NCBI GenBank assembly: GCA_903908715.1
Contig: CAIVSY010000016.1
Coordinates: forward strand, 83,850 to 147,849
DNA length: 64,000 bases
Source of the DNA: an uncultured bacterium
Lineage (GTDB): Bacteria > Verrucomicrobiota > Kiritimatiellia > CAIKKV01 > CAITUY01
Direction: 5' to 3'
Numbering within the stretch: the stretch's first letter is position 1; the number at the start of each line of letters is the position of its first letter. Made by a program: the position numbers and the translations under genes. This document shows positions 57,693 to 64,000 of the stretch, piece by piece. The notes beneath the pieces were generated by a model. It searched no databases and was not told where the DNA came from. It saw only the letters and a program-made list of their open reading frames with translations.

Positions 57693-58718
57693 TCAGGCCG
57701 TCCCCGACGCTTCCGCTGAAGCCCACTGTTCTCCGGCATGGTAACTGGACCTGACAAGGGGGGCGGATGCCACCCCCCGGAAGCCCATCTCGAGAGCCCA
57801 CTTCGCATACTTATCGAATTGGCATGGAAGTACAAAACGACTCACGGGAATATGAGCAATGGATGGAGCAAGGTACTGTCCGATTGTGACAAGTTCACAT
57901 CCGGCATGACGTAAATCCTGCAATGTGCAACGAATCTCCTCATCCGTTTCTCCTAAACCAACCATGATCCCCGATTTTACTCGCAAATGCCTGTTCGCCT
58001 CTAAAGTGTCTTTGGCAGGCGGTTCGCAACCAATGCTCGGGCAGGCTTCAGAAGGACGCATCTCGTCCCGCAAGCAGCCCGTAGTCTTAGTATCCTGGGA
58101 GGCGCGCCAATCCGTTTTATCACGAAAGTCCGCTGCAAATCTCAACACATTGAGGGAACGATCATAGTCTGCAGCCGGCCGGATCAGTTTCTGAATACGC
58201 CGCACCGTTTCAAGGTTATGGTTGAAAACGTCAGGTGCTTCATTCAACACGCAAAGCAGACTGCTTTCGGCTCCCTTGAAATCCGGGGTCAGCACCTCGA
58301 CACGCGATTGAGGCAGACGAGCATGAATCGCCCGAATGGTATGAGCAAACACCCATGCACCCCCATCCGGCAAGTCGTCCCGTGTAACACTTGTTATAAC
58401 AACATGCCTAAGCTGAAGTCTTGATGCTGCTTGGGCTACACGCTCAGGCTCATCCATATCCAGCGGCAAAGGCACACCCTTGTGAACGGCGCAAAAACGG
58501 CATTGCCGGGTACACACATTGCCGAGAATCATGAACGTGGCAGTTCCATTACGAAAACACTCGCTCTCGTTTGGACATTGGGCTCCAGTGCAAACTGTAT
58601 TAAGGCCACACTCCGCGAGTACATCGTGAACTCTCTCTGCAGTACCCCTGCCCAGACGAATCCGGATCCACGGCGGCAAGCGCCCAAGACTTTTTTTCTG
58701 CTCCTGTTGCATCGTCAA
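57693..58718 (-). CDS. lipA: Lipoyl synthase with internal insertion
   Basis: VCTGAQCPNESECFRNGTATFMILGNVCTRQCRFCAVHKG, VITSVTRDDLPDGGAWVFAHTIRAI, PDVFNHNLETVRR, VKSGIMVGLGETDEEI, VRSSYHAGEQ. Confidence 0.95.
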   Translation of the reverse strand: MTMQQEQKKSLGRLPPWIRIRLGRGTAERVHDVLAECGLNTVCTGAQCPNESECFRNGTATFMILGNVCTRQCRFCAVHKGVPLPLDMDEPERVAQAASRLQLRHVVITSVTRDDLPDGGAWVFAHTIRAIHARLPQSRVEVLTPDFKGAESSLLCVLNEAPDVFNHNLETVRRIQKLIRPAADYDRSLNVLRFAADFRDKTDWRASQDTKTTGCLRDEMRPSEACPSIGCEPPAKDTLEANRHLRVKSGIMVGLGETDEEIRCTLQDLRHAGCELVTIGQYLAPSIAHIPVSRFVLPCQFDKYAKWALEMGFRGVASAPLVRSSYHAGEQWASAEASGTA

Positions 58719-61386: not shown

Positions 61387-62871
61387 CTATTTTGCAAGGA
61401 TGGCGAGGAATCGGTCTCGGTATGCCGCCTCCCAATCATCACAGGCCTTAGGATGGAAGCGCTCCACTGGTGAAGATTGCACCGCAACCTGTGCCGCCTG
61501 TTCCCATCCCTCGATTTCACCTGCGCTGCGCAACTGCCCGAGCAGATTCCCCATTGCTGTCGCCTCACTCGAACCGCATACGATCTCAAGCCCGGTCGCG
61601 TCGCTTGTCATCTGGTTCAGAATCCGATTATTCACTCCTCCGCCGATGATATTCAGGCTTTCTGGCTGTATACCTGTCAGGCGCGACAAGTTTAGCACTG
61701 TATGCTTGTACTTCAGGGCAAGGCTTTCGCTTATGCACCGCATGTATTCTCCTTGTGTAACGGGGGCCCTCTGCCCCGTGGCGGCACAAAGAGCTGCAAT
61801 GGCTTCAACCATGTTGCCCCGATGGAACAGGCTCTCGTGATCGGGATCGATCAGCGCGCCGAATGGACGTGTGGCTTTCATCTCAGCATCCAGATATTCA
61901 AAATCGACTCGTGCCCCGGCCGCTTTCCATATGCGTCTGCATTCATTGACAAGCCACATTCCCATGATGTTCCGCAGGACCCGGTAACGGCCATCCGCGG
62001 CACGCTCATTGGTCAGTTTTTGTTCCATGGCCTCCCGGACTGCAACTGGATGATCTGAGACAATACCCAAAAGCGACCAGGTGCCGGAGGAAAGAAAGAG
62101 AGGACTCTTTTCACTTGTTGGCAGCGCCAGCACAGCCGATGCCGTATCATGGGTGCCTGTTGCATTCACAGGCACCTTCTCGATCCATCCAAGCTCTTCC
62201 CGAATTCCCGGGAGTAAAACGCCCCTCTGATCGGGGATCTTGTACACAGTCGGGAAAATATGGCCGGGCAGTCCAAGTCGACCGATCACGTCCCACGCCC
62301 ACGTTTCCCCGTTCAACTGAAGCAATTGAGTGGTCGAAGCGTTCGAGAGTTCACACCCAATACTACCCGTCAAAAGGTAGTTTAGCGTGTCGGGCATCAG
62401 CAGCAACGTCCTTGCATTATCCAGAATCCACGGCTCACGCACTTGTACACCCAGCAAGTGGTACAGCGTGTTGAACGGCTGAGACGCAATGCCTGTCTTA
62501 CCATACAACTCGAATTGTGGAATTCGAGAGAAACAAAGAAAGTCCATCGCCAGGCTTCGCGAATCCCGGTAACACACCGGCGCTTGAAGAATTTCCCCCC
62601 GCCGGTCTAACAACGAAAAATCCACGCCCCACGTATCGAAACCAATGGAGTCTGGCGGAATTCCGTATTGTTTCCTGAACTCGCTCAAGCCGTTCAGGAC
62701 ATTCTGAAGCAGGCCGAAAATATTCCAGAAATAGTGTGATGGCGTCCGCGCTGGGATATTATCGAACCGGCAAACATCCCTGAGTTTCAACGCCCTTCCA
62801 TCAAATTCGCCAGCAATGCCACGGCCGCTTGAAGCCCCCAGATCATACGCCAAGAGGATTTTCTTTTTCAT
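61387..62871 (-). CDS. rhaB: Rhamnulokinase (FGGY family)
   Basis: LLAYDLGASSGRGIAGEFDGRALKLRDVCRFDN, IGFDTWGVDFSLLDRRGEIL, TGHDTASAVLALP-like ATGTHDTASAVLALP, LFLSSGTWSLLGI, NIIGGGVNNRILNQMTSDATGLEIVCGSSEATAMGNLLGQL. Confidence 0.95.
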   Translation of the reverse strand: MKKKILLAYDLGASSGRGIAGEFDGRALKLRDVCRFDNIPARTPSHYFWNIFGLLQNVLNGLSEFRKQYGIPPDSIGFDTWGVDFSLLDRRGEILQAPVCYRDSRSLAMDFLCFSRIPQFELYGKTGIASQPFNTLYHLLGVQVREPWILDNARTLLLMPDTLNYLLTGSIGCELSNASTTQLLQLNGETWAWDVIGRLGLPGHIFPTVYKIPDQRGVLLPGIREELGWIEKVPVNATGTHDTASAVLALPTSEKSPLFLSSGTWSLLGIVSDHPVAVREAMEQKLTNERAADGRYRVLRNIMGMWLVNECRRIWKAAGARVDFEYLDAEMKATRPFGALIDPDHESLFHRGNMVEAIAALCAATGQRAPVTQGEYMRCISESLALKYKHTVLNLSRLTGIQPESLNIIGGGVNNRILNQMTSDATGLEIVCGSSEATAMGNLLGQLRSAGEIEGWEQAAQVAVQSSPVERFHPKACDDWEAAYRDRFLAILAK

Positions 62872-63033
62872 GAATGGCTCCTTCCAAAACCTGATCCCCA
62901 TTTTTTTGGCGGCAGATCCTTTTATTCTTCTAATGATTCATGGCGCGCCTGTGAATTTGTATCAATCAGTGCGCCACCCGTCAATGAATCCGCCGACAGG
63001 CAAATCCAGAATAGCAAGGCAGGTCTATGGCAC

Positions 63034-63083
63034 TGGTGGAGCGGAAGAGATTCGAACTCTCGACCCCCACGTTGCGAACGTGG
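63034..63083 (-). pseudogene. 3' fragment of tRNA-Ala(CGC); probable attachment-site remnant
   Basis: Reverse complement CCACGTTCGCAACGTGGGGGTCGAGAGTTCGAATCTCTTCCGCTCCACCA: complete anticodon arm (loop TTCGCAA), variable region, T-arm, 3' acceptor CCGCTCC, A73 and CCA. No D-arm or 5' acceptor strand follows beyond 63083. Confidence 0.85.
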
Positions 63084-63218
63084 TTGGAATCTCGATATGG
63101 CCTTGTTTATTGGTTTTTTCAGATTTGGTTGTGTTAAAAGTTGTGTTTTTCCGATTGCAGATGCCCAGCCGTTTCCAGTATGATTCATGGCGTACCAACA
63201 AGAACATTGGAGGCCATT

Positions 63219-64000
63219 ATGGGACTGGAAATGCGGCGTGGTCAAGACGGAAACCTGAAATCGAAATGGTGGTATGGATCGTACATGGCGAACGGGAAAC
63301 GACACGTGACCCGCCTGGGCGTGAAAATCACCGGACGGAATATCCCCCACTCCCTGAAGGAAACCGGAGATGTGGCGTTCGAGCAGTCTCGGGGCGCGGC
63401 TAAGCTGGCTCTGGAGAAGGTGGTCGCCGCGGCCATGACACGGAAAGCCGCGTCGGCACAACTGGAACAACTGTACGAGATCCGGACCGGGGAAAAGGTC
63501 GGGAAGATTCCCCTGGATAACATGGCCGACGCATGGAAGAAGGCGCCCCATCCCAGGGAACGGTCTAAACGGTATGAAGAGCAGTCCCTGACGACCATCA
63601 AGGCGTTTGCGGCGTTCGTGAAGGAGAACTTCCCCGCTGCGGCCAGTATGGACCGGGTGAACCGGCGCATGGCGGAAGCCTGGATGGCGTCGCTTGCCGG
63701 CGACAAGGTCTGCCCCGCCACCTACAACGATAAGCTGGTGCTGCTGCGGTCGGTATTCAAGTTGCTGCGCCATGACGCCGGGATGGCCTGGAACCCGTTC
63801 GAGAGCATTCCGACAAAGACACGGCAAACCACACACCGGAAGCCTTTTACGGCCGCTGAACTCACAGCCATCATTGAAAAGGCCGATCCGCTGGTGCGGC
63901 CTGTCATCATCACCGGCATCTTCACCGCCATGCGCCGGGGTGATTGCTGCCTGTTGAAGTGGTCGGATGTGGACCTGAAACAAGGCTATGTGGTGGTGAA
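63219..64000 (+). CDS. int: Tyrosine recombinase/phage-type integrase (3' truncated by window edge)
   Basis: Open frame from ATG 63219 to the window end: MGLEMRRGQDGNLKSKWWYGSYMANGKRHVTRLGV...RKPFTAAELTAIIEKADPLVRPVIITGIFTAMRRGDCCLLKWSDVDLKQGYVVV; the T-A-M-R-R-G-D-...-L-K-W-S-D-V-D segment matches the first catalytic Arg region of tyrosine integrases. Confidence 0.9.
   Translation, partial: MGLEMRRGQDGNLKSKWWYGSYMANGKRHVTRLGVKITGRNIPHSLKETGDVAFEQSRGAAKLALEKVVAAAMTRKAASAQLEQLYEIRTGEKVGKIPLDNMADAWKKAPHPRERSKRYEEQSLTTIKAFAAFVKENFPAAASMDRVNRRMAEAWMASLAGDKVCPATYNDKLVLLRSVFKLLRHDAGMAWNPFESIPTKTRQTTHRKPFTAAELTAIIEKADPLVRPVIITGIFTAMRRGDCCLLKWSDVDLKQGYVVV

Follow-up and report, generated by a model that had tools for sequence, protein, structure and literature searches.

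Integration at the anticodon of tRNA genes is well represented in Islander, where 2083 anticodon-centred sites and 3760 cases with a 3' fragment are recorded among 3919 islands (PMC4383910). The class A tDNA islands and prophages described there combine a split tRNA gene, a displaced 3' fragment, an internal tyrosine integrase and a crossover of the anticodon-loop class. In this work we analyzed a stretch of 64,000 nucleotides, hereafter the window, that corresponds to bases 83850-147849 of contig C16 and whose base 64000 is the last base of that contig. The window ends with an ordinary tDNA island boundary of the anticodon-loop kind, whose signature is exactly the one given in Islander (PMC4383910). 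It is like the class A islands in all the features just named; unlike them, the copy in the window is mapped at one end alone, without an island length or a restored tRNA gene. The source bin is a draft genome of 118 contigs and 3.05 Mb, 91% complete and with a reported contamination of 1.54%.

The features that define the boundary, in coordinates of the window, are the following.

61387..62901, minus strand: rhamnulokinase-like FGGY kinase, with a score below the curated NCBIfam cut-off for rhamnulokinase; it is the nearest chromosomal gene outside the element.

63034..63084, minus strand: displaced 3' part of tRNA-Ala(CGC), bases 26-76 including the encoded CCA, identical at 51/51 positions to the intact gene of the relative G002.

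63067..63083, minus strand: anticodon stem-loop CCACG-TTCGCAA-CGTGG, the putative symmetric core site.

63128..63147, minus strand: tandem repeat AACACAACTTTTAACACAAC with a period of 12, a probable arm-type site of the integrase; 0.02 of shuffles do as well.

63209..63213, plus strand: GGAGG, judged from the sequence to be the likely ribosome-binding site of the integrase.

63219..64000, plus strand: N-terminal 260 residues of a tyrosine integrase, with 64% identity to the full-length integrase of the relative G005.

Elsewhere in the window, the family models match the lipoyl synthase ORF (57693-58718) in two separate stretches, which suggests a mid-protein insertion of several tens of residues.

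The tRNA fragment (ACCACGTTCGCAACGTGGGGGTCGAGAGTTCGAATCTCTTCCGCTCCACCA) gave a 100% match to bases 26-76 of the tRNA-Ala(CGC) of the family (E = 1.9e-20), using as query a tRNA-Ala(CGC) sequence identical to the intact gene of G002; with this value chance is excluded. Its anticodon loop, TTCGCAA, includes the anticodon CGC, and U70 and A73, to which the initial annotation had drawn attention, are both there. The same annotation had described a 3' half of 50 nt at 63034-63083; the fragment is present, with a length of 51 nt and its end at 63084, one base longer than claimed. ARAGORN and Rfam made no tRNA call at this place and found in the window only a tRNA-Val and a tRNA-Pro; therefore, the fragment is not an intact tRNA gene. 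We read it as the chromosomal half of attR. Base 26 is where identity with the tRNA sets in, for the window as well as for G005, and the sequence upstream of this base differs between them. The attachment site is of the anticodon-loop (class A) kind, the element being identical to the tRNA from within the anticodon arm onwards, and the 7-nt loop (63072-63078) is the probable crossover segment.

The integrase ORF reads rightwards beside the fragment, as had been noticed from the outset; it starts at the ATG at 63219, downstream of the GGAGG, and runs for 260 codons up to the contig end; the second part of the catalytic domain is thereby cut off, so that among the catalytic residues only the region of the first Arg (TAMRRGD) is included. 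This partial protein alone did not match any Pfam family. Its homologue in G005, a protein of 477 residues, matches PF00589 and the PHROG 1 integrase, and its sequence carries FHSLR, SGH and LKNYF. When the genome collection was searched with the integrase, G005 was the sole match, and the sole match among the phage records was an Akkermansia phage integrase (27% identical); in IMG/VR, neither the integrase alignment nor an exact 29-mer found a match. The continuation of the gene was not found in the bin with PF00589 or with the G005 integrase. The integrase ends present at the ends of contigs C33 and C41 were considered as the continuation and rejected, since they are of a different, integron-like type. 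These two stretches (C33:63862-64403, L009, and C41:153815-153966, L008) were named by eye as the C-terminus of an integron-like integrase, and both are joined at the same point to an ORF that resembles a four-helix bundle; in C33, a stretch similar to an integrase N-terminus lies on the other side of this ORF (both also named by eye). An insertion, the decay of a gene or an error of assembly could each explain these joins.

The connection between the fragment and the integrase was analyzed by an attL/attR/empty-site comparison of G005 and a congener, G008, two genomes of the window's own family. In G008 the tRNA-Ala(CGC) gene is unsplit, with the upstream flank ...GGAGTGCTCCTTTTTCAT and the downstream flank TCCTTCGCTCGGCGCTACGCTTGAG. 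In G005, contig C347 carries an intact tRNA-Ala(CGC) whose upstream flank is nearly the same as that of G008 and which is followed by other DNA, and contig C138 carries, in this order, the integrase, the 3' part of the tRNA and the downstream flank seen in G008. The empty site is present in G008, and each flank of its tRNA gene corresponds to one of the outer flanks of the G005 element. The distance from the T-arm of the fragment to the start of the integrase is 158 nt both in the window and in G005. The G005 element (C347 plus C138; record CAJBSZ010000138.1) also has the same tRNA and the same boundary base as the window, and a nearly identical arm repeat. Its cargo includes an RHS-repeat protein, a protein with a laminin-G domain and a weak phospholipase-A2-like match; the cargo of the window's element may differ.

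A search with the G005 integrase against 17 genomes of the order and 287 of the class revealed many homologues. Numerous of them have, as the window does, a 3' tRNA fragment immediately upstream of the integrase on the other strand, which belongs to tRNA-Pro, Gly, Arg, Val, Met or others; other homologues have at this place an intact tRNA in the opposite orientation. At two loci, L065 (G013:C5) and L205 (G026:C61), the tRNA at the integrase side is intact, has the orientation seen in the window and is not accompanied by a fragment, as though it were the 5' half that the element had restored. Three complete elements were delimited in tRNA-Pro genes.

G003, 9.4 kb, tRNA-Pro(TGG): direct repeat identical at 45/45 positions.

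G016, 6.5 kb, tRNA-Pro(GGG): direct repeat identical at 50/50 positions.

G003, about 6.7 kb, tRNA-Pro(CGG): shorter repeat of 38 nt.

The polarity of these elements is that of the window, with the integrase at the fragment end and the intact tRNA at the far end; an intact tRNA at the far end together with a direct repeat is found in G005, G003 and G016. One of the G003 elements carries a D5-type primase and the other AbiEi/AbiEii together with a caspase-domain protein, whereas the G016 element encodes the integrase, an excisionase-like HTH protein, a DnaB-like helicase and a protein similar to the small subunit of terminases. This gene set gives the G016 element what we take to be a likeness to PICI-like phage satellites; the likeness lies in the genes of that relative, and the window shows nothing beyond the integrase. 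The varied cargo of the relatives suggests small replicating or satellite-like elements, and it does not identify the element of the window.

Tandem repeats with a 12-bp period are present at both ends of four elements (the one of G005, where either end has the same repeat, two of G003 and one of G016). In the window 71 nt separate the repeat from the start of the integrase, and in many relatives a repeat is located 65-76 nt from the corresponding start; with up to 2 mismatches, a second copy was not found in the bin. Some of these repeats are individually weak, and in two cases 10-13% of the shuffles are as good; the argument for arm sites is therefore based on their shared position and their presence at both ends, not on the scores of individual repeats. 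The 12-bp-spaced repeats would presumably bind the integrase.

From the comparison of attL, attR and empty site in the relatives and the layout common to the integrase family, the proposal of an integrase-linked element boundary at tRNA-Ala(CGC) was upheld. With a probability of roughly 0.9, we read the end of the window as an attR junction, formed when a tyrosine integrase inserted an integrative element into tRNA-Ala(CGC) and split the gene. The integrase would recombine the attP of the element with the symmetric anticodon stem-loop of the tRNA-Ala(CGC) gene, leaving the original 3' half of the tRNA on the chromosomal side (63034-63084), and the element would supply its own 3' half, so that a whole tRNA is expected to be restored at the far end. 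In this model the integrase gene adjoins the fragment and points towards the interior of the element, and the paired 12-bp-spaced repeats near its start are the probable arm sites. From this anatomy we infer that crossover takes place within the 7-nt loop, that the repeats serve as arm sites and that the window's copy is mobile. Counting against the attR reading, the far end of the element and the C-terminus of the integrase are absent from the bin.

Two other explanations were weighed. The fragment could be the remnant of a decayed tRNA that lies beside the integrase by coincidence, and in agreement with this the bin has no matching intact tRNA with an element-type flank; however, the fragment is undecayed at 51/51 positions, its distance from the integrase equals that of G005, and many relatives of the integrase have a tRNA, either intact or as a 3' fragment, about as far away. 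For the nearest relative, the G005/G008 comparison contradicts a coincidence, and we regard this explanation as very improbable. It is somewhat less improbable, and still improbable, that binning or assembly produced a chimera in which C16 and contig C82, which carries the only intact tRNA-Ala(CGC) of the bin, come from different organisms, the fragment and the intact tRNA being unrelated. The division of the bin into 118 contigs and the three differences between the two 3' halves would be accounted for in this way, yet the tetranucleotide agreement between C16 and C82 is about 0.90-0.94, both are closer to the other contigs of the bin than to most relatives, and the reported contamination is 1.54%. 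Both contigs fit the bin in composition, and the tetranucleotide profiles show nothing more than this.

The attR reading calls for the far end of the element, where the initial annotation had expected an intact tRNA-Ala(CGC) with a matching 3' half. In this genome the assembly offers no convincing candidate for it: the 3' half of the C82 copy differs from the window fragment at 3/51 positions, two of which form a compensated T-stem pair, and the gene is not accompanied by arm repeats. It could be proposed that C82 is nevertheless the far end, that is, a restored tRNA-Ala(CGC) whose 3' half was donated by the element and whose tail is element DNA. C82 ends 161 nt past its tRNA, its composition is like that of C16, and the 3' version typical of the family is that of the window fragment and not that of C82, as expected if C82 had received a foreign 3' half. 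Against this, the 161-nt tail has no 12-bp-spaced repeat, which the four compared elements have 104-145 nt past the tRNA, and it contains a palindrome and the CTCTCGGACATTAA motif, which also follows other ordinary tRNAs of the family. The gene order of the C16 and C82 flanks shares no neighbours with the tRNA-Ala(CGC) loci of the relatives; synteny cannot decide on C82 for this reason, and the contig was judged instead by where the arm repeats lie and how they are spaced. On balance C82 as the far end is doubtful; its tRNA-Ala(CGC) looks like an unoccupied chromosomal gene with a chromosomal-type flank, and we judge that the true far end is missing from the assembly. If the C82 gene is unoccupied, the genome would have had two tRNA-Ala(CGC) genes, which counts against the attR reading; the other genomes of the order have at most one intact copy each.

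With the attR reading, one boundary of a mobile element is fixed to the base and tied to an integrase family. In this family the attachment site has its core in the anticodon arm and a pair of 12-bp-spaced repeats at 65-76 bp from the start of the gene, an anatomy by which further elements of the group can be mapped; the boundary itself reveals no new mechanism or cargo. C16 holds no element DNA past the partial integrase, and the cargo of this element, which the initial annotation had placed to the right, is missing from the assembly. Tentatively, the element of the window may be one of a group of little-described small replicating or satellite-like elements of a single bacterial class, with a shared integrase family that would act in either orientation on the near-palindromic anticodon arm of numerous tRNA genes; the integrase would consequently border the displaced fragment in some of these elements and the intact tRNA in others.

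We also considered whether the palindrome in C82 and its CTCTCGG motif were the end of an insertion sequence; this was rejected because ordinary, varied ORFs follow the motif and no transposase was recognised by eye. A motif, CTCTCGGACATTAACGGGGGCACC, closely follows intact tRNA genes on their downstream side, and several of its copies have CCTAGGCACACATCACTCTAA after them. Its sites in this genome (G000) are C82:48637 and 48672 (L022), C59:19047, C31:5315 and C111:126700; in a search with a 14-mer and one mismatch, 5/5 matches in this genome follow a tRNA on the same strand. A 22-mer search detected it in 7 of 97 related genomes, every one of them a member of the same family, and copies are present in G001, G002, G003, G005, G007 and G008, the one in G001 lacking a nearby tRNA. 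The motif may form a small hairpin.
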